From: Chrysomallon squamiferum
Taxonomy: Eukaryota; Mollusca; Gastropoda; Neomphalida; Peltospiridae
NCBI GenBank assembly: GCA_012295275.1
Contig: CM022671.1
Span: 29,702,750 to 29,766,749 of the forward strand
DNA length: 64,000 nt
Direction of reading: 5' to 3'
Below the pieces are notes generated by a model. It had not been told where the DNA came from, made no database searches, and was given only the letters and a program-made list of their open reading frames with translations. Below are positions 3,028 through 42,300 of this stretch, in pieces (position 1 is the first letter of the stretch; the number at the start of each line of letters is the position of its first letter). The translations under genes and the position numbers were made by a program.

Positions 3028-6000
3028 CTGTTATCCAACTAAGCATCAAAACATGATTTATTCTTCCTAAAATTATTTATTATATAACTATTTATATAAA
3101 CACACTGATATACATTAACTCTCTGCATAATAAATCAAAAGCAAATATTTAGGAAAACAAGTACAGTAGAAGTAACACAAGACAGTAATTACCAGTGAGA
3201 ACAGACAGATGCCGACGCTGATGTCCCACATTTTAATGGTCTTGTCCCGGGATCCAGATATCAGGAAAGGTCCAGTTCGTTTTTGTTTTCCACCCTGAAA
3301 TAATAAAGAAAAATTATTTTTAGCATATTTCATTAAAAACAAAAACAACAACAACAATGAAATAGATAAATATAATCAATTTTTTTTTTTTTTTTTTTTT
3401 TAAAATTAAGCTAATGTTGACCAATTAACAATCCTGTTGAAAAACTGATTTATCATCTTTTTCAAACATGTTTGTAGAACCCCATTTAAATTTTTCCTTC
3501 TGAACAAAACAATCTAAATCTACGGTCTGGTGTCATTAAATTACTCAACAATCCACTGACAAAAATCTCTTTAAATAATATAAATTTATTTATCCAAAAT
3601 CAAAAATTATTCAAAGAAACTTTACACCTGCTTTATTACAGGCAAAACTAATAAAAAGAAATAAATATAAAGAAAATTTTAAATTTACAAATTTCGTTAT
3701 TAATAATTAAAATTTTATTACACTTTTTAAAATTTTATGGTCTCTGATTTATTGTTTGTATTAAGAAAGTACATTATTATTATTATTATTCTTTTAAATT
3801 TTAATGGAATCAGAGGTATTTCACATATGGATGACATGTGGAAGTACAGGTTAAAAGACTCACTCCAGTCTCCGCAGCCTCAGAGATGGCAGGCTGTGCT
3901 GATTCCGGTGCCCATGCAATACACTCCACAACATGCTTGTGTTCTCGCAGTTCAGCCTTGCATTCCTTCGTGGCCACAACCCAAACACGAACAGTGCTGA
4001 AAAAAAACACAACAAAAAAACAAACCATAATGAAATAGTTATACTACAAGTATAAACCAGCATCATATTATTTACTGAAACATTAAACTACAGGGGAAAA
4101 CTTTTTTTTTTTTTTATATCCCATTTCATTTAATGAAATATTTGTGTTACTGGTATAAACAGGTTTCATAAGGTTTTGTAAATTATTTATATGTATTAAG
4201 TGGAAGCTATCATAAATCTACTTGAAATAACATTACTATGCAGGAAACAATCATTATTAACAGAGAACATGTACAATGTAACATAATTAGCAGATTTTAT
4301 ATAAACAATGTATTTTATCATATTTCTTAAATAAATGATATTATTACCATGTATACAAATGTATATTGAATCTTGTCCTATGCAGTAAATAATATTTTTA
4401 TTTATTCTTCTGTCATTATCTGTCATTAGCACTTTTAAAACTGCTTTTTGTAAAAAATAAATATCTTTTAGATGCACCAAAGTAGCCTGACCAAGTTAAA
4501 TTTCATTCTACTAATCTAAACTTAAATTTCTGGAATTATGTATTCAATGAAAATGACTAAAATAAATGACATCTTAGTAGTTAATATAAAACTGAATTAA
4601 GTCTGGTAGAGATAAAGGCGCGAGTATTATTATGGTGTGATTTAAATTCATTTTGTTACCTGATCATTAGAGCAGCTGGCCAACAGCGATCCATCATGGT
4701 ACACTCGTATCATGCGTACCCATTCTCTGTGTCCAGTGTATGTCTTTACACAGTAGCTAACAAAAAAAAAAAAGATAATTTTTATGCTAAGTTTGTTTCC
4801 ATGCTGCTTTCAAAATTAAACTGATCAAAAATAAGAAATAATTAAAGTAATAATTATATAAAATCAAGGATAAAATGGACAATAATCACATAAAGATCAT
4901 ACTGCATCATATGACAGTGAAAGCTAAGAGATTCATATTGAAAATGAAGGAAAGAATAAATTCAAACTTAAATAAACCGTATAATAATACATACCCAGTA
5001 GCTACTTCCCACATTTTGATAGTTTTGTCTCTTGAACAGGATACAATAAAATCTCCACTGGGCATGAAAGCCACACTCGAAACATTGTGGTCATGTCCTG
5101 AAATCAAATTTTCTATGTTAATTCTGTTAAACAAAATACTGATGAATCCTATTTTCAAGAAACAAAAATTAATAAATAAAAACATATAAAAAAAATATAT
5201 AATAATTTGGTCATGTTATGTAAATCTAACAAACTAATGTTACTTTGGTTATGGTTTAAAAACATTTTTTTTTTAATGTAGTATTATTAAAAATTAAGAG
5301 TCGTTAAACCATCAAATTAACTATTAACTCAGATAGTATGATACATCTTTTAGTTAACTACACAATAACCTTTCCACACAAAAACACACACACAAACACC
5401 GACAAAAGAGAACAATGTGTGTATTATTGGTATTTAAAGCTTTCATTACTCATTTTTATTATTTGTTGGATAAATGGTTACCATGCAAGGTCTTGATGCA
5501 CTCATAAGCCTGGAAGTCCCATAGCTTCACAGCCATATCAGCTGAACAGGATGCTGCAATGAAACAATAAAATTGTACATACTGAATTAAAAACTTTACC
5601 TGTCTGTCTAAATAAATAGTGAAAATGCTAATAGAAATAACATAGAAGAGAAATAAATCTTAAAAAAAAAAAATACAAAAAAATACAAATAATAAAAACA
5701 AACTTTCGGATCATTAACATGTTTGTATGTTTTTAATATTCACAACTAAACTGTTATTTAGTTCATTTTTTCATAATAGTATTTTTCATTTTTTCAAAAT
5801 CCATACCCAAAAATTTTCCAGACTGGTCAAAAGCAATATCTTGTACTGAATCTGTGTGTCCTTTTAAAGTCCTCTCGTAATCGCCAGCTTCAAAATCCCA
5901 AATCTGTCATTAAAACAATTAAAAATTAAATAACATTTCAGCAAAAAAAATAAAATAAAAAAATAAAAATTATGACAATAAACTATAAAGTTGTACTTAT

Positions 6001-24702: not shown

Positions 24703-27700
24703 TTATCCATCTGTGACGGCTACTTCTGTCAGTTTTGTTTCAGGGTTTGTGTCTCCGTTAAGTATCGGAGTAGGTGCATTATCGAGTTTGATTTGCAATT
24801 CATCCTTAATGCACTTCTCGGACGAGTTTTCAGTTTTGTCTTTGTGATCACAACATCCATCAGTCTGTGCGTCGGTGATTTCAGTGATTTTTGCTTCACT
24901 TTTGTTCCCTGGGTTTCGTTTTGACATCTCTTGTCGGAAACGCTCGATATCATCCGGGCTGTAAATTTTGCAAAATATTCAACCAATCATTTCAATATTC
25001 TTTCTTCTACTGATTAAAATGTTATTACTTTAATAATGTGGAACTAATGATAAATTTCCTAAAAATTATTATTATTGGTTTTTGTTTTGTTTTTTAACTA
25101 ACATTTTTCAAAATGGCAAAATGAAATTGCAAAATAAAATGTACATTTACACTATTAAAACACTGTAGAGCTTTCCTGTGAATTGATATATATATATATA
25201 TATGAAAACTGAAAAACATGCTTTGTGTCTAGGTTATTATGTGTCTGGCTCTATGTGTATATTGTACATGCTCATTTAAACTTCTTTTTTTTTGTCAGAA
25301 CAGAATGATAAAGAAAACCAAATAGATTTGTGAATCAGAAATATTTACCTTATTTGAACAAAGACGATGCCATTGATTACATTCAGTGTATCCAAAACAC
25401 TTGATAAAGAAGGTGTCTGAATCTGAATAAAAAGTGATGAAACGATTTAAAAATTAGAAACTCCTAAAAACACTTTTTTCACAAAACAAAATTCACTGTT
25501 GAATGTTACCTAAATTTTAAAAATATTGGTATTTTGGATGACTAATGAAAGCACCCGCTACCCAAACAAATTTTTTTAAAATAAATTTTCTATCTAATTA
25601 AAACAATGATCGACACTTTACAGTTGTATACTTTGTTCATTTTAAAGAATTAAAAGTAATTTCACTACAAATGGTTACTTCATTTCAACAAAAGAACTGT
25701 ACCAAACCATAATGTGACTGTGTTTTTAACATGACAGAAATATTCTCTTGAATTTTAAACTGCACTTGTAACCTTGATCTTACCTTGTCTATAGGAGGAA
25801 AACCACATAAAACTGGCAAAATACAAAATGGAAATACCTTTCCTCCAATGAGTAATAAATAAAGCTATGAGCATCAACCTACTCACTGAATAATTTAAAA
25901 CCACAATTCCGGTTTACCTGAATAGGAGGAAAGATGATGTTCTTGTCTCCTTTGTAAATCTCGTTCATCTTTTTCTGAAAGACAACAGCCTGCTGTGTGA
26001 GATGTTTCAAACACTCGGAACTCTCCTTAGTCCGGTCATGCTCCTCTCCAAGCTGCAAAACAACAACTTTATTCATTACCAGTTACTTGTGTTTTCTCGT
26101 TTCCCCAGTGTTAAATGGTTTATGCAATAATTTCTAGTGGGGAGATCAGTTCAACTTGGAGCTATGAAGTTTTGGTACCAAATCAGTTACAGATCAGCCT
26201 GACACAATATACCCAGACACACACAAATGATCATTATAAATGTGTAACAGTTTGTGATTACAATATAAACAGCACAAGGAAAACGATGTCTAAATACATA
26301 ATAATTCAAATTACCATCTGCTTGTAGATTGCGTATGCTTCCTTCTCACTCTGAAGTGCTGCACGGAAATCTCCACGACAAGAGTGAGTCCTAGCAACCA
26401 GATGGTAACTCATGGCAACCTTTAGACTCTTAGCACCAAAGTACCTACAAAGAAAAACAACAACATTTAACTTTAAAATAAAATACTGGCTGGACAAATT
26501 TTAAAATAATTAAGTAAGTTCACATAAAAGATTGACCAACACTGTTTAAGATCAATTTTGTACCCATGGCATGAAGCACCAAGCTCCATAAAGAGAAGGT
26601 GAGATTAACATGGAAATATTTCTATAACCTCAACTGATTATGAGAATTGTCATGGCCAAAAGGCTTGAACCCTTGCCCGTGAGGTTTATGTAAGTGTATG
26701 ATAAATATAATTGTGCCACGTCAGAAATGACTTTTAGAAAACAAATTTGCAGTCTCATCTTTGCAGAATATCTACTGCACATAGAAATTGATGATATTTT
26801 TGTAGAAATTATTAATATAAGTAGAAAAGTTTCTTTTCTTTTCTTTTAATATCAAGCTAAATCATAAGAAAAATGTACACACATTTAATATCAAAATGAC
26901 AGATTTAAAAAAATGACTACTAAATATAATAATTTTATTTACTATATTGTATCCATGGCATGAAGCACCAAGCTCCATAAAGAGAAGGTGAGATTAACAT
27001 GGAAATATTTCTATAACCTCAACTGATTATGAGAATCATCATGGCCAAAAGGCTGGAACCCTTGCCCGTGAGGTATAAATAATATAATTTCTGAACTATT
27101 TCAACAGCCCAGATACACAGCTGTTTCATGTATCAAAATAAGCAGTGTAAAAGTGTATAGAGTTTTAATTCATTACACATTTTTTATTTTTGTTTCCAAG
27201 CTTAATGAAGCAGTCATAACCAAATGTAAGGAAAAGTAAGGAAAACATTCACAAACAAAATCATCAGTTACTATGAATGAAACAACAAATTTTGAAAAAC
27301 CTGAATTGTATAGGAAGATATTATCATTCGTTTTGTACCCATGGCATGAAGCACCAAGCTCTATAAAGAGAAGGTGAGATTAACATGGAAATATTTCTAT
27401 AACCTCAACTGATTATGAGAATCATCATTGCCAAAAGGCTTGAGCCCTTGCCCGTGAGGTTTAAATACAATTTCTGAATGTTTCAACAGCCCAGAAACAT
27501 AGCTGTTACATACAACATAAAAAGCAGGGTAAACTTGTGTGTAATTTTAATTCATTACAAATTTTGGATTTCTCAGCTTAATGAAGCAGTGATAACCAAA
27601 TACAAGGAAAAGCAAGGAAAAGATTCATAAAACAGTTGTTTTTGTATCCATGGGAAAAAGCTCCATAAAAGATGATGGATTAAATGGAAATTCAAACTCA

Positions 27701-30700
27701 ACTGATTATGAGAACCATCATGAAAACCTGGAACCAAGGTTTTACTGAATGTTTATGGATAAAACAGGGTAAAGTTGTTTTAATTATCCATTTTGGCTCA
27801 GCTTAATGAAGCAGTGATAACAAATACAAGCTCCATTAAACTAGTTGTTTTGTATCCATGGCATGAAGCACCAAGCTCCATAAAGAGATGATGAGATTAA
27901 CATGGAAATGTTTCTATAACCTCAACTGATTATGAGAACCATCATGACCAAAAGGCTGGAACCCTTGCCCGTGAGGTTTAAAAAAAAGTGAAAACAAGAT
28001 GCCAAAGCAAAACCTCTTTAGTAACAGCTTTAAACAGAAGTATGAATACTGTCTATATACTTTTTCTGTCATGATGAAACAAGCCAGTTCTGTTTCTTGC
28101 TCTACATATTTGCAGTAAATTGTCTCATCTGAAACTTTCCACATACAGAACTTACTTAACATGTCTTTGGTCAATGAATTAGAGTTGTGTGACAGTTTGA
28201 ATGAGAAATTACTCAGTGGGAACAAGAGTCAATTCTGTTGTAATTATTGAATACAGCTTAATTAGAAATCTAAACTGGTTATTTTTAAGCAGCTTAATGA
28301 AATATTTGATAATACCCTTAAAAATCACTCTACAACAATACTGTTATCATTCTGTACCCATGGCATGAAGCACCAAGCTCCATAAAGAGATGATGAGATT
28401 AACATGGAAATATTTCTATAACCTCAACTGATTATGAGAATCATCATGACCAAAAGGCTAGAACCCTTGCCCGTGAGGTTATCAAAAGTACAGGTAAAAA
28501 CTGAAATAAATGAAAAACCTGTACCTGTATATATGATGCAGTGTACATAAAATTACATCACAAACATTTATTGATGATGAGTAAAAGTATCTTATAACTG
28601 TTTACAAAAAATCACAACAGAAATTTGGATGTGACCATCAGAAACTGCAAGAAGTAAAGTCCTGTGAAAACAAATCAAACTGGGTACTGTGCCACAGAAC
28701 TGCAAAGTTGTACTCAAAGAAGAATAGGCAAGAGTAACAAGGAAATGTGTCTAAAGCTCAAAACTGATTTTAAGTTTTATTACAATGAAAATTAAGCCCA
28801 GAATACATGGGCTCCAGAGGAAGATGTTTGAGAAGGGACATGGAAATACAGACACAGACCGTAACAGCGTAAAACTGTCAGATTCCTTTAAAATATAGTT
28901 TGAATCTTTTTAACATTTTCAACTTGGTATTCGGTTCAGTATGAAAGAAAAAAAACCTGGTTGAGCATTTCAAACTGTTTTTTGTTACTGGGTTTTTGCA
29001 TTTCATTGTCATCTTGAAAAAAATATTAAATAAATTTAATAAATGGTTACACTGGTGCAACACTAATAGAAGTGGTACTTTTAAAAAGGACAAGGATTTA
29101 ATAAATACAGAGAATTAAAATAAATATATATTAACTAAGAAGTAAAACTTTAAAAAAAGGTACTTTGATAAATAAAATATATGCTTCTTCACAAAATTCA
29201 ATAGAAAATCTTTCCTGATCTTAATGTAATGCTACTGGATTTCTTCAACGTTTGAGACCAAACCTATAAAGTAGCTTCTGGAACAAAAATCTCATATTCT
29301 GTACCCATGGCATGAAACACCAGCCTCCACATGGAGCGAGCAGGTGGGATTAACATGGGTTTCTGTTTACTGTCACCTCAACTGATTATGAAGACCATAA
29401 AAGCCTGTAGGCTTGGCTCCTTGCCCGTGAGGTGTACAAACATGGAATATGAAATATTTTAAATTAGTGAAAAAAAAACCCAATTATATTCACTTTCTAA
29501 AAATAAAACTTCAGACAAAGCAACTGATATAAAGTTAACTTTTGTTATTGCTAGAGATTGTAATAGTATTGTTAGAATATGATGTTCTGAAACAAATTGT
29601 TTAAATTAAATTGCAACAGAATCTTACCTGACGTTCAGCTGTAGTGTGTGTTCAAGAAACTTCAGTGACAGTTCATACTCCTCCACAGCATGCAAGATCA
29701 GACCAATGTTGCTCTGAAAAAAAAATAAAAACTTTAATATCTCAGTATTTTATAACATCTCATAAATGCATTCTTTTTCCCCATCTGCATTTCACTGGTA
29801 ATTCAGAAGGAAAAAAAAAAAAAAATCATGTCACCTGTTTGTTAATGACCAAAATTTTCAATACCATAAACAATATCTTGATACTAAATTTTAGGTATAA
29901 TTTCCTTTTAAATTTAAGATGATGAATTAACATTGTTTTAATATCTGAACATGAATATATTTTTTGTTTGTTTATTTGTTGTTTTTTGTGGGGGGGTTGT
30001 CATCAAATATTATTAAAAGTATAGGACATTATTGACTAAGAACAAGAACTTTTCTTTTTACATGTACCTTCCCATAAACAGAACAGTAGTTGTCTGTCAT
30101 TATTTCATGCAGTGGGTTTACCAAGTAGTACTGATTTTGTAATGTCAGTGAAGGTCTGTTACCAATTTCCATGAATAATTCAGACATAAAAAAAGTTTTA
30201 CTTACATCAATGAGTGCAACATCTGGATGGTTTTCTCCGTGACACAGGATGGCCAGGTAACGAGCCCTGTACATCAGTCTCAGGGAACTTGATACCTGGT
30301 TGTTGGCAAAGCAGTACAATGCCAGATGTGTCTGTACAAACAAAATAATTAAATAAATTAAAAAATTTTTTTTTTAATAAAATCCCCAACTACTTACATT
30401 GCAGTTAAACCTAATACTAGAGTTTAAACTAACAATTATTAAAAGAAAAATAGTTTAGTCCAGAGGATACACAATGCAATATTTACTACTTTGTCAAACA
30501 GGACTTTAAGTGATGAAAGATAAAGACTGAGCCTTTTTTAATAAATAGATCACCATTTGTTTCAAATAAAAACAAAAATCTTCTCAAAAGTTGATGTTGT
30601 CATTTTCAAAAATCTTTCAAAATGATTTCTAAATATATAGAATTCACCATATTTTAAAACAATGCTGAAACAATCACATTTATCGTCACAATTTACTACT

Positions 30701-30979
30701 CACGTATTCTGTGATGGTGTTTGGATGGTCAATGCCAAGCACACGCTCGCTCATGAGAACAGCTCGCTGTTGGTATGACAACGCTTCTCCATAGTCACCC
30801 ATGATGTAGTTCAGTCGTGCCAGAAGTCGCAGACAGGCAGAAATTTCTGGGTGCATTGCACCGTAAACATTATTGAGGAGATTCAGAGCTTCACTGATCA
30901 GTTCATAGCCCTCTCTCAACAAACCCTGCTGAATTTTAGACTGTCCACTCGTAAAGAAGTGATAAGCATCAGTAGCCTA

Positions 30980-31049
<70 letters not shown>

Positions 31050-32217
31050 AATAAAATAAAATAAGTTTACCAAAGAAAAGAAAGAGATTATGCTACTGCA
31101 GCCACTAATAGAAAACAATATATAGTACTTGATTAAATTAATAAATATGAATATCTCTGGAAGCATTTGGAAATCTGGGCAAAGACAAATATATCAAGTT
31201 TAACCTATTTTGCAATGTATTGATCTCCTTACTCATAAATTTTAATTTTAGTGGCATTTATAATTCCTGGCAAAGTGTTAAGAATAATTTCACAATTTAC
31301 ACATTTAAAAATTTATATGCTTTTTAATAATTTATAATTTTACTAGTTCCCAAAGTATATATATATATATATAAAAAATAATCAATGTAATTAATACCAC
31401 TTACTTTAGGATGTATATGCTTGACAATAGGGTATACATTGACAATGTCCTCTTCAAAGAAAATCTGCTTGTTGCGAATGTCCAGATGGTACTCTCTCAG
31501 CAGAACCTGGATTCCCACCGAGCGACAGAAAGCTCTCATAAGTGACACACGCTGCAATCCATACTTCTCTACCGCAGAGTCCACAGAATCACTGCAACAG
31601 AAACAAGCTAATAAGTGTAAAATGAATCACAGTATTCAATTGTGTATTAATAAAATAAAATAAAATATTCAACATCACTGGACAACAATGTATATTGTAT
31701 TCAACATCACTGGACAACAATGTATATTGTATTCACATGTTAATACAGCCCATCTCTGCTATATGCTTTATATTAAATTATTCCATCAATCAAACTTAAT
31801 AAACCGTTTAATAAAATACACTGAATTTCATAAAGTATAGCAATATATTTAAAACAATCTGTAAATAATTATCTTATAGTTGAAGACATTTTCTATTTTG
31901 TTGGATTTAACTGTAATTTTACATGATAAATCAGGTAGTTAACATTAACAAACTACATTTCATTTCCATTACTTAAAATAAATTCGATAATAAAAAACTT
32001 TTATTCCTTACTCATACTGAACTGTAACTTATTTTAAGAATGTCTAAATTAATTTATTCATTATTTATAATTATGGATCCACCACAAACAAGTTTTTTAA
32101 CTTTAAGGCCATGTTATCTCACTCACCACTCGAGGGTGTAAGTGTAGTAGTCACTAACTTCATCAACAATCTTCTTCCACAGAGTTTTGGGCGTTTCAGA
32201 AACCCACTCACTGCTTT
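24703..32217 (-). CDS. CLUH: CLUH exons 27-35: TPR domain and divergent C-terminal tail
   Basis: Exons 27-33 (residues about 937-1279) encode the helical run and tetratricopeptide repeats that bind RNA and partners: [95 protein letters not shown] and [18 protein letters not shown]. Exon 34 has [16 protein letters not shown], the last conserved motif. Exon 35 (85 codons with stop) is an acidic, Lys/Thr-rich tail without family conservation. Exons 31 and 32 are separated by a 3.2-kb intron full of snoRNA copies. Confidence 0.94.
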
Positions 32218-35200
32218 CTGCAAAAAGAAACATACAACAATATTTACTGACTATTAATATTAGCGAACTACATTTCATTTTCATTACTTGTTGTTATCAT
32301 TATTACTTTACGTTTTTTTTTAGATTTTTGAAAGTCAAATCTAAGAACTGATCTTCAGGCGTCATTGAACTAATTTCTATAATATCCAAACCTTTAACAG
32401 CCTTTTCAGAATACCATTATAACAATCCCTAAAGAAAGGTAATATATATAATTCTAGACATGAACAATGAATTGGTATTTAGGCAAGCCAAAGTCTGTGA
32501 AAGATACAGCACGGCCTGGCTGGGAATCACTGCTACAGTTAAAAAATAACCATAAAATTATCAAAAAACTTAAAAATAACTCACCAACACTGAATACAAA
32601 GCTGTGCTTATTCTTCTTCTTGCTTTTGCGTTTAGCAGTTCTGCTGGGTATCTGAAAAAAGACAACAACAGAAACCTCTGAAACATTTGTCATGTGTTAT
32701 TGAAAGCACATAATGACCAAATACTCCAAATACTTATTTTACTACATGGCATTAAGAAATGTTTCAAATATTTAACAAAATTAAAACCAATGACATGCCA
32801 TTGATGTATACAATTAATAAAAAAAAATTAAATAATAAAGGCTATTTATTTGGGTTTTTATATATTTTTTTTATTATTAATCACAAAATGTTGAAGAAAG
32901 ATTGCATTTAAAAAAATGTAATGAAATTAACTTAATCTTTCCTTCTCCAACCCCCAAAATTTTATTGAACACCAATGGTACAAAATATGTCTTACAGAAC
33001 AAAACATGTTTCAGGTTAGATAAAACAAAACAAAAATGTAAGCAAATGAAAAATCAAAAACAACAAAATAACAACAAATAAAACAAACATTTCAATAAAT
33101 GTTATTTCCAAAAGATGTTGCATTTTGAAAAACTTTAAAGAAAAAATTAAAAACTGGACCTGTTTAATTAAAAAAACCAGCATTATCATAGAAGGAAAAA
33201 TTATTTGTAACTCTTTTAAAAACTCTTCACCAATATCATTTATTTGTATCCATGGCATGAAGCACCAAGCTCCATAAAGAGATGATGAGATTAACATGGA
33301 AATATTTCTATAACCTCAACTGATTATGAGAATCATCATAGCCAAAAGGCTAGAACCCTTGCCCGTGAGGTACAAAACATATTTTTTAACATGTAACAAA
33401 AACATGAACTCAAAACTGAAAAAGAATGTCAAAGAAACTACCATCTTGAATTCATGACAAACTTGAAAATAAAGTAAATTGTTTTTTTAATCCACTCGAT
33501 CCTGTTAATGGGTAAAAAAAAAAAAAAAGAAAGAAAAAGAAAAAAAAAAAAAAGAAAAAGGAAAAATATTAAGCTGGCAACAACTGACATGTATTATCCT
33601 TCTGGAGAGAACTGTTAAAGACATTTGTTCATCAACTGAACATTACAACTAGGATTAGAGTAATCCATAGTCTGGGAATTAAACTGAGCGATATACATAC
33701 ATATACAATATATATAGATTAAATTTTAAACTCAAAATGTAGCAAGTGATTGCTACTATACAGAAATGATTATTAATCACTCTACCATTAATTCAGTTAA
33801 AATGAATTCTTCACATGCAAGTTTATGCATCAAAATAAATCTGTGGTGTATTTGTTATCGCTGATTTTATCTGTTGGTAATTAAAAAAGAAAAGATTAAA
33901 AAAATCATATCTACTATTATTCAGGTACAGTACATAGAGCAACGAAGAACATTTTCCTTTTAATCATTAATGTTTATGAAAAATGACCTTATTTACAGTT
34001 ATAATATTATGTTATATACAGGAAGACATCAACAAAATGATTACAAATAAATAATGTATACAGCTGTACCCATGGCATGAATCACCAAATCCAGTAAAGG
34101 AAACAGTGAGATTAACATGGACAGTTTCTTATCACCTCAGCTGATTATCAAGTTCATAATGGCCAAAAGACTAGACTCCTTGCCCGTGAGGTTTCATACC
34201 AACTGATCATTATTCCAAATATCCCTCAGAAAAACCATCACAATAATAATAATAGTAATAACAATGACAATAACAATTACTATAGGAATAATAACAATAA
34301 TAATAGTAACTAACAATAAGAAGAATAAACTGAAAACAACATCTCCTTGTGTTATCAGAAAAAGTGTAAACATCTCATGAGTAAAAGATTTCTACAAATA
34401 TCTTTATCCTTTTCCCAGGATGAACAATTAAAACCATCAAGTTTATATACCAACACCCGTTAATTATCTACGTTATTACATACCTCCTCAGTTGTCACTT
34501 GAGCATGCGGTGTGGGGTATGAGCCAAGGTAACAGTTGAGAAAATGGCTGATGGCAGAAGAGAGGTTGACCAGGTCGACACCCTGCATGTACGTCTTGAA
34601 GATTCGCTTAGCAGCACGACAGATCAACTCTCCTATAGCTATACTCTGTACAGATATTTAAATAATTAAAAAAATAAATTAAAATTTATAACATTTTAGT
34701 ACTGTATTATTTGCTATCATTTATTCAGAAGTAAAATATTCCAGTAAATTTTAATATTTAATACAAAAAAAAAATAAAAATAAAAAAAAAACAACAACAT
34801 ATGCATCAAAAATTAATTCAATAAAAATAATTGTTTATCCTTATTTTTAGAAAGAACTAAACTGTCTTATGTGATGAATTAAACTGAACATTTTTCTTGT
34901 GGAAACAGATTCATGAAAAACTGGTAATGTTTCTAAAATAATTCATAACATGAAAAATAAAAATAAAAATAATTGCAGAAATATATAACAGAAAAACAAA
35001 AGATATATATTTACTCACAAAGACATATGATACTGTTGAGTATTTGGAAAATATGTCTGCCACTTTGCCAAGGTAACGCATGTTTATTCCACGATTGTGC
35101 ATTGCTTCGCTCAGCGTCAGCCCGTCAATTGGAGAAGATGTGTGATCTAAACAGTCATTCACCTGAACAATTCACAAAACACAAATATAACTGAGCAATT

Positions 35201-39394: not shown

Positions 39395-42300
39395 GCATTG
39401 TCAGTTTCAGCCCATACTATTGTTATTTATTCATTTAAAAAGAAAAGAAGACAAGATTTTACTGAAACCAAAGACTTAAACATATCTGAGTTTACATGTA
39501 TAACTATTCTAAAGATCTACAAAATTTTTGATCTGAATGTTTAATATATAAAAGTTTAGTGATGTATTTGCATCTGCAAACTGCAAGGAATATAACATGA
39601 AGTGTTAGAAAAAGTGGGTACAAACCTGGGATAATGGATTGAGCAGTAACTCGGTAACCACGATAGTCAATGACAACAGTTCCTAAAGTGTACAGATTTT
39701 CTGGATCAATTCCAAAGTATGCTTTAACTCCCTGCAAGTCACTTCCCTGAAAAAAAAAGAAGCAAGAATTATCAGGGTATTTTGGTTAATGTCCTGCAGG
39801 TGCACACTCTAAACCACACCCTAATTGTAATTTATTACTTTTAAATCAAGTAAAATATTAAACTATAAATCTATTGACTTAAATATTTCCTGACTTCCAA
39901 CAAAGGCGATGATGACTTTCTTATAACGAGCAAACCATCATTACTCCATGAAACTACACTTAGCAGCAAGTGATCTATGACTTGCACTCCCCCACAAACA
40001 GGAAAGCACATATAATCACCACTGGATAAACCAGTATAACATACTGATTACTGTTCAGAAACAAGTCAATGGTGCTCTAAAAAGGACTGATCATGCGATC
40101 TAAGGAAGAATATTCATTGGCCTTTGATAAATCATTATATGGGGAAATGAATCCAAGGGAGATACTAATAAGCATAGAATGCTTAGAATTCGTATCTGGA
40201 AAAATCATGGTGACAACCTATCTGTGCCAACTGTTAGATATACCCAATGATGTATTGTATAACAAGTTTTAAATTCTGTACAACAGCCACCTGTGTATAA
40301 CAACTACTACTGTCTGGCTGTCAAAGACATGATACATGTACTGAAAATTTAGAAATTTTTAGAACTAAAACATACCGGAGCATAGTAAGCTGCAGCATCA
40401 CCTCCAAAGTCTTTGTAATGATCCTTAACATCAAAACCCAGACTGAAGAAAATGTTGTTCCAGATAAACATCTGCATTCTGTAATACAGCAAAATCAAGT
40501 ATGTGAATATTAAATGCCATTAAATATTTTCACTGAAGGTGTGAATATATAAAGTTTAAACTGTGTGAAATAATTCAGGATTTGAGAAATAACATGTACT
40601 GCATCCTCGGTAAAAACTAAAGTTAAATATTTAACCAAAGATATGATAGAGAAATTATTACATCCCATATAAAATGGTTAAATTCTATCACATACTTTAC
40701 ATTATGTCACATGTATGTTCAAATATAAAACACAGAATATGACATCCTAGAGATAAAACTAAATTATTTGAAAAAAAAAAAAAAAAAAAAAAAAGAAATA
40801 GTCAAACATATGTTGCAGTCGATATTAATTATAATGTATTCCATCCTTTGAAAGATGAATACTTATGTTAATTTATTCAGGTAATCTGTTTTTAACCATT
40901 CCATCTGTGACAAGAAATGCTGTAGATACTTAGGATGTCAACCCAGTATATCAGTTGAAAACTTTATTCAAGTCAATTATAATAAAAAAAAAAATAAAAA
41001 AATTCTTTTTATCTCACTTTGCATCTTCACCAGGATTAATGGCCATAACATTTCCATCAATGACGGCCACCGCACCACGTGTAGCAGCTGCTACAAAATC
41101 ACTGTGTACCTGCACGAGAGAGAGAGAGGAAACAATAGTTGTTTAATTTTTCACTCATGGACATTGTGTAGAATATTTAAAAATAAATTTAAAAAAAAAC
41201 AACTTTTTATTTGAAATACTATGTAAGAGGATAATTATTAAAGCTTTAATTATTTAAAAAAATAAAAAATAAACTTTGTGCTGAATTAATAAATTTTGTT
41301 ACTTTGAAAATGGCTCTCTCTCTGATAAGTCTCTCAGGCAGGTTTTTACGAGACAGTTCTCTTGTTGTTTGTATTTCCTCGTTCCAGTCTCTCGTCTGAC
41401 CAGGAATATGTTCTTCATAACCCAATCTCGTGGAAAATGCTAAAAAAAACCAAAACATTATAATCTTCCAATATTATTTAAATATTATACAAAATATGCA
41501 AGAGCTACATGACACTTATGTTAATAGTAATATTTTTGTTATGAATATTACAAAATGTCTGGAAAAAAAAATTATGAAGAAAAAAATTCTAATTATCTAA
41601 ATGAAAGTTTAAAAAAAAACTACTTCTTTCATGTATTTTAGTAATGCAAATTTTATGTAAAACTTGGTGTAAAAAGGCTGTGAAAGATATCTTATGACTT
41701 GATTGTGAAAATGCAACTGTAAATAAAATCAATAATTAATTTCAGTTTGTAGACAATCAAAAGCCTCCATTAAATAAGGAAATAAAAAAATTAAAACCTG
41801 CTGGTTGAGGATTTATCCATTTTTATCAAGTATAACCAAAAAAAACATTTTTTTTTAATAAAGAACGTTTCATCATTCTTCCAATGTTAAGCTAATATAG
41901 TTCTAATCAGTAACTTATCAAGACACAGAAGCAAACTCCCGAGAATGTCTATGTAAGAAAAACTTAAAATATCATCTTGTTCTTACCATCCTCTGCTCTG
42001 ATGTAGTCAATGACATGATCAGGGTGAGGGGCCATCCAGCTGTACACCTGGTATGGACTAGGCACACGTTCAAATGGGTGTTTCTGTGATCTCTTTTTCA
42101 ACAATGTGGAGAAATTCTTTTTAAATGCTGGGCTAATCTGTTTGGAAAAGAAATAATAAAATATGTATTCACTGGAATTGAAATATTTTATATTTAAAGT
42201 TTATGTCTCTATATTAGTCCTGTCTTCTTTTTCTCTTTTTCTTTTTTATTTAAAATAAAGTTATGGTAATTTTTAAAAAATAAATCAAAAAAAAGTTTTA

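Follow-up and report, generated by a model that had tools for sequence, protein, structure and literature searches.

In box H/ACA guide RNAs, the pocket of a hairpin pairs with the sequence on either side of its target uridine, about 14 to 16 nt from the H box or the ACA triplet. Elements of this layout are repeated in two introns of the CLUH gene of the gastropod Chrysomallon squamiferum, within a 64,000-nt stretch of contig CM022671.1 (positions 29,702,750 to 29,766,749, assembly GCA_012295275.1; here called the window), and very probably represent box H/ACA small nucleolar RNAs (snoRNAs) of one family, which has multiplied inside the gene and is released from its introns. RNAs with the same predicted targets in large-subunit (LSU) ribosomal RNA (rRNA) are described in yeast and human. 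Yeast pseudouridines (Psi) 2191 and 2314 are assigned to snR32 and snR86, respectively (PMC8307265); modification of LSU2314 is reported to require snR86, the conserved part of which is its 3′ hairpin, drawn with a pocket (PMC2551606). In human 28S rRNA, position 3674 is Psi at 99% and position 3797 is Psi-m at 100% (PMC6182160), and SNORA48 (ACA48), with SENP3-EIF4A1 as its host, is given for 28S-3797 (PMC6466398).

The CLUH copies have the predicted target uridine 25S Psi2314 in common with snR86 but differ from it in length (~131 nt versus ~1000 nt) and in carrying two pockets. Their predicted target is likewise that of SNORA48; however, no match of the Rfam SNORA48 model to the CLUH copies was obtained even at E ≤ 10, and host and copy number are different. 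The 5′ pocket has the same predicted target as snR32, 25S Psi2191, but in the CLUH copies a single RNA carries both this pocket and the one for 2314, which adds a candidate dual-target H/ACA guide.

Duplication in cis within a host gene is an established snoRNA route in vertebrates such as chicken, in which H/ACA variants number at most three per snoRNA (PMC2653536), compared with eight intact copies in CLUH. Animal snoRNAs are mostly found one per intron (PMC11028025), and as few as 7.3% of the human H/ACA families in which at least two members are expressed have all of those members in a single host (PMC8178906). Thus, the CLUH array is, judged by its sequence, an H/ACA RNA of a known kind, the unusual part being the presence of six intact copies in a single intron. 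No report of a CLUH-hosted snoRNA was found in the open-licence literature.

Copies in CLUH and elsewhere in the genome

CLUH lies on the minus strand of the window; its exons were matched by tblastn using fragments of human CLUH, and a CLU domain (PF13236) is located at 39507-39785, upstream in the gene. Copies of the element were identified by repeat search, alignment and a covariance search with a model built from the eight intact copies, leaving out c4 and c10. The intact copies are 131 to 138 nt in length and score 129 to 158 bits against this model made from themselves. Intron A contains six of them, together with a degenerate copy in which pocket 1 lacks its 5′ strand and pocket 2 its 3′ strand (c4) and a possible fossil (c10), while the intact copies c8 and c9 are found in intron B, taken as a single intron (34483-32652) provided that no small exon was overlooked inside it (Table 1). 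A first-pass annotation of the window had described ten related elements in two CLUH introns, all in the sense of the host. Location and orientation were borne out, as CLUH and the copies are all on the minus strand, and eight intact copies and one wreck stand; the tenth element, at 17.4 bits, is only a doubtful fossil. Allowing up to two mismatches, the motif ACCTCACGGGCAAGG matches the window eight times, always within a copy and on the minus strand, where shuffled sequences lead to an expectation of 0.01.

Across the 404.6-Mb assembly, the opening motif was found eight times with up to one mismatch, in each case in a CLUH copy and in the host sense; a further 11 matches with two mismatches compare with a total of 10 for a reversed-pattern control. 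Genome searches with the whole element, the counts of which are lower bounds, returned at least 11 places, namely, nine of the ten CLUH copies (without the fossil c10) and two homologues on contig 8, designated d1 and d2. When the contig-8 element was used as the query, at least d1, d2 and three CLUH copies were recovered. The homologues (stretch L039; region G000:C8:3096392-3098809) are situated between two exons of a minus-strand gene encoding epidermal growth factor (EGF) repeats, with a splice donor and acceptor ~5.3 kb apart, and both are host-sense within one intron, provided that no small exon was overlooked. Overall, intact copies are host-sense in 10 of 10 cases and comprise 10 distinct sequences; since all copies differ in sequence, reads could be assigned to individual copies. 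A tree has one split (100/100) that sets the contig-8 pair apart from the CLUH copies, and splits within CLUH were not resolved. The d1 and d2 elements diverge at 2.2% of sites (98% identical), whereas their flanks are unrelated, differing at 50.5%. Both retain GGGCAA, AAUCAG, GUUAAUC, UUCAUGC and ACA, and in their first lower stem the pair at the inner end is C-G, compared with A-U in the CLUH copies.

Guide anatomy, covariation and constraint

The closing stems ACCUCA/UGAGGU and CCAUG/CAUGG, the hinge ANANNA and the ACA triplet, reported by the first-pass annotation for every intact copy, were each confirmed in all eight intact CLUH copies. The H box is also present by eye in d1 and d2, although it is a weak criterion alone given the A-rich hinge, and ACA is found in all ten intact copies. 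For most copy pairs, homology stops within ~4 nt past ACA, and the mature 3′ end is predicted to lie about 3 nt beyond the triplet. When the 3′ hairpin of each of the ten copies was folded in isolation, the canonical pocket fold was always the free minimum, and its pocket leaves 7 + 6 nt within the loop at a counted distance of 15 nt to ACA; the 5′ pocket is 16 nt from the H box. Whole-element folds of d1 and d2 have both lower stems, and among the CLUH copies c7 is the nearest to the textbook two-hairpin fold at minimum energy, its 5′ hairpin being the closest to canonical. With a hairpin-hinge-hairpin-tail arrangement, H box and pockets in place, the element belongs, as far as its sequence indicates, to the box H/ACA class.

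The canonical structure used for counting was the minimum fold of c7 minus the pocket pairs and was judged by pair counts; an RNAalifold consensus of the copies was not adopted, as its 5′ hairpin was noncanonical. Among the eight CLUH copies, five pairs changed on both sides and 88.7% of pair cells were paired. Addition of the two homologues raised the number of such pairs to 10 (20 cells), with 88.8% of cells paired, compared with 31 to 45% paired and none to two both-sides-changed pairs in shifted-partner controls of the ten copies. Compensatory changes were seen in both hairpins. The ten-copy counts were taken from a refitted alignment, since the MAFFT alignment of the ten copies misplaces one base of d1 and d2 at the 5′ pocket.

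Stems, pockets and ACA are nearly invariant, while loops and flanks drift. In the six most similar copies, none of 54 stem, pocket and ACA columns was variable compared with 16 of 77 elsewhere, and across all eight CLUH copies the values were 1 of 54 and 57 of 84; the columns were picked with the alignment known, and P values are descriptive only. Copies c2 and c3 differ at 5.3% of sites within the element and at 16.5%, three times as much, in their common upstream flank. When 60-nt flanks were compared across all pairs, only two pairs of flanks were clearly alike, those upstream of c2 and c3 (z = 10.7) and those downstream of c4 and c5 (z = 6.3); the flanks downstream of c6 and c8 ranked next (z = 2.8). 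Gene conversion may also contribute to how uniform the element is.

The spacers around c2, c3 and c4 (window 27099-27255 and 27481-27631) are themselves duplicated, which shows that copies were duplicated locally, in tandem, together with their flanks. Amplification proceeded in part by such duplication, as seen in the upstream flank of c2/c3 and the downstream flank of c4/c5.

Predicted rRNA targets and competing readings

Pockets were scanned against every uridine in two pieces of eukaryotic LSU, L002 and the 361-nt LSU part (first 361 bases) of L008; L002 is an LSU stretch of eukaryotic origin labelled as a bacterial metagenome-assembled genome and was used in place of the rRNA of the host species. 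A second scan added an 18S sequence and all of L008, the rest of which is not rRNA. The best site of the 3′ pocket was GCAUGAA-U-G-GAUUAAC at U2683 of L002, for which the scan counts 7 + 8 pairs, 7 + 6 of them inside the loop. In two runs with the same guide, this score was reached by none and by two of 500 shuffled guides, respectively, and in the wider scan by none of 300. An exact copy of this target occurs in a contig assigned to the bin of the endosymbiont of the tubeworm Escarpia (an annelid). For the 5′ pocket, CLUH copies and homologues alike had their best site at UGAUU-U-C-UGCCC(AG), U2560 of L002. The 5′ pocket of the homologues fits this site better than that of the CLUH copies; d1 forms 5 + 7 pairs, a score reached by 6 of 500 shuffles.

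Both sites were first numbered on a yeast sequence and then checked by their spacing of 123 nt, which is the same for 2683 − 2560 in L002, 2314 − 2191 in yeast and 3797 − 3674 in human, and by the offset from the U2560 site to helix 69 of L002, which at 67 nt equals 2258 − 2191 in yeast. The predicted target of the 3′ pocket is most likely the equivalent of yeast Psi2314 and human 28S-3797, and that of the 5′ pocket most likely the equivalent of yeast Psi2191 and human 28S-3674, with a weaker fit in the CLUH copies; the former is much better supported than the latter. In the proposed mechanism, the copies would be released from CLUH introns after splicing as H/ACA ribonucleoproteins (RNPs), each binding dyskerin, NOP10, NHP2 and GAR1. 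The 3′ and 5′ hairpins would then guide pseudouridylation at the equivalents of Psi2314 and Psi2191, respectively, with several redundant copies probably supplying dosage.

A number of observations weigh against a family of working H/ACA guides. Minimum folds of whole copies gave both lower stems in four of the eight CLUH copies (c1, c7, c8 and c9), with c2 and c5 forming the 3′ lower stem only and c3 and c6 neither. Folding energies of CLUH copies and homologues are only mildly below those of shuffled sequences (z of −0.15 to −1.7), and in all ten copies a 5′ hairpin with an open pocket is 1.4 to 6.9 kcal/mol less favourable than the free minimum. The stable two-hairpin fold expected by the first-pass annotation is upheld by the compensatory changes and the isolated 3′ hairpin, but not by whole-copy folding in half of the CLUH copies. 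The count of further pair types was not above that of shuffles (171 of 500 for the CLUH copies; 94 of 500 for the ten), and the structure came from a single member, c7, to which the ten-copy alignment was fitted, favouring it over the shifted versions. In the CLUH copies the 5′ pocket forms only 5 + 5 pairs, and its scan by itself does not reach significance (37 of 500 shuffles; 78 of 300 in the wider scan). The 25-base target of the 3′ pocket had no match in the host assembly, so that its presence in the host species is assumed.

An Rfam scan of the element, a check the same annotation had proposed, returned no family at the curated gathering threshold. The best sub-threshold H/ACA match was plasmodium_snoR31 (RF01606), with which the element, when aligned, has two 5′-pocket stretches in common, CGGGCAAG and UAAUC; at 29.1 bits (gathering score, 60; E = 0.94) it does not confer membership. 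Nothing on plasmodium_snoR31 was found in the open-licence literature, and it is not mentioned in PMC2656528. Sub-threshold matches were not accepted, and assignment to an Rfam family was dropped.

It is unlikely that the family is H/ACA derived but mostly dead, with one or two working members such as c7 and the near-identical copies being recent unexpressed duplicates. The wrecked state of c4, the near-canonical 5′ hairpin of c7 and the absence of either lower stem in whole folds of c3 and c6 would fit this, but the six near-identical copies vary in none of their functional columns, and the isolated 3′ hairpin is canonical in all copies. A role of the intron array in cis on CLUH, either as a splicing switch or as a stable snoRNA-ended intron RNA, with rRNA guidance secondary, is improbable: two snoRNAs in one intron can yield sno-lncRNAs (PMC11028025) and, by their coordinates, copies are near both ends of intron A (Table 1), but both pockets remain complementary to rRNA, and d1 and d2 reside in an unrelated gene. 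Insertion of a short interspersed element (SINE) or other transposon, perhaps snoRNA derived, that accumulated in CLUH was rejected as very improbable, for although homology ends near the element borders for most pairs and the contrast between d1/d2 elements and flanks is such as retroposition could produce, the assembly holds eight host-sense motif places at up to one mismatch, all in CLUH, and at least two homologues besides, with no dispersal or mixed orientation among them, no target-site duplications were detected (longest own-flank match, mean of 6.0 nt versus 5.9 nt for mismatched flanks), and invariance gathers in guide and box columns. The first-pass annotation had named spread through the genome in both orientations as what would speak against snoRNAs, and this was looked for and not seen. 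Its reading of the elements as functional snoRNAs and not a SINE is supported, with pockets predicted to fit two known pseudouridine sites.

If the copies are snoRNAs, intron A may tentatively be regarded as polycistronic, with six H/ACA RNPs arising from one 3.2-kb intron via internal cuts or from a long RNA with c7 and c1 at its ends. Such an intron, if real, would break the usual pattern of one snoRNA per intron and tie the supply of two LSU pseudouridines to CLUH expression. With six intact copies, it would offer a natural case for how many snoRNAs one intron can release. CLUH as the host would link the gene of a mitochondrial mRNA-binding protein to rRNA modification; the fly CLUH homologue is needed for 40S and 60S biogenesis (PMC11625335).

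Feature coordinates and neighbouring observations

Table 1. Copies of the element, example pocket strands, host introns and contig-8 homologues (window positions unless a stretch is named)
Feature	Position	Strand	Remarks
Intact copy c1	26556..26686	−	cmsearch 154.2 bits; 111 nt of intron left before next exon
Intact copy c2	26945..27075	−	cmsearch 156.1 bits
Intact copy c3	27331..27461	−	cmsearch 158.2 bits; ~180 nt of upstream flank in common with c2
Degenerate copy c4 (wreck)	27640..27741	−	cmsearch 26.7 bits, E 0.00019
Intact copy c5	27848..27978	−	cmsearch 151.6 bits
Intact copy c6	28350..28480	−	cmsearch 154.5 bits
Possible fossil copy c10	28685..28813	−	cmsearch 17.4 bits, E 0.033; matches c5 over 40 nt (82.5%)
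Intact divergent copy c7	29297..29434	−	cmsearch 132.3 bits; 193 nt of intron ahead of it
Intact copy c8 (intron B)	33242..33372	−	cmsearch 156.3 bits
Intact divergent copy c9 (intron B)	34062..34193	−	cmsearch 129 bits
AAUCAGU, 3′ strand of 5′ pocket (example, c3)	27408..27414	−	Position counted; pairing scan
UUCAUGC, 3′ strand of 3′ pocket (example, c3)	27344..27350	−	Position counted; pairing scan
CLUH intron A	26445..29627	−	3183 nt; GT-AG (GTAAG...TTGTAG); flanking exons by tblastn; six intact copies
CLUH intron B	32652..34483	−	GTATGT...CAG; upstream exon by tblastn; two intact copies
Homologue d1	L039 6672-6810 (contig 8)	−	89 bits
Homologue d2	L039 4393-4531 (contig 8)	−	81 bits

Eukaryotic LSU sequence among the contigs comprised one 3′ piece (L008) and seven genome contigs with matches. 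An Rfam search of six of these seven (L004 was not included) identified a long LSU stretch in L002 and two LSU pieces in L003, with no match in the other four. Viral contigs were searched for the 3′ pocket target or the 18S pattern, as signs of eukaryotic LSU contamination, and none were found. One contig filed under a tubeworm endosymbiont (L001) ends in a piece of eukaryotic 28S (4792-4868), which starts near the insertion site of R2-type ribosomal DNA (rDNA) elements. The contig resembles host rDNA that carries an insert and was placed in the wrong bin, and L005 and L007 may be similar, judging by match position.

On the intron side of one CLUH exon, a run of 67 A's is present at window 30981-31047, possibly an assembly or slippage artefact. 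Within window 1290-46044, CLUH adjoins a minus-strand LIS1/PAFAH1B1-like gene with LisH_PAC1 and WD40 domains and a plus-strand METTL16-like gene with a Methyltransf_10 domain. As LIS1/PAFAH1B1, METTL16 and CLUH are near neighbours on human 17p13.3, this neighbourhood may reflect old microsynteny.

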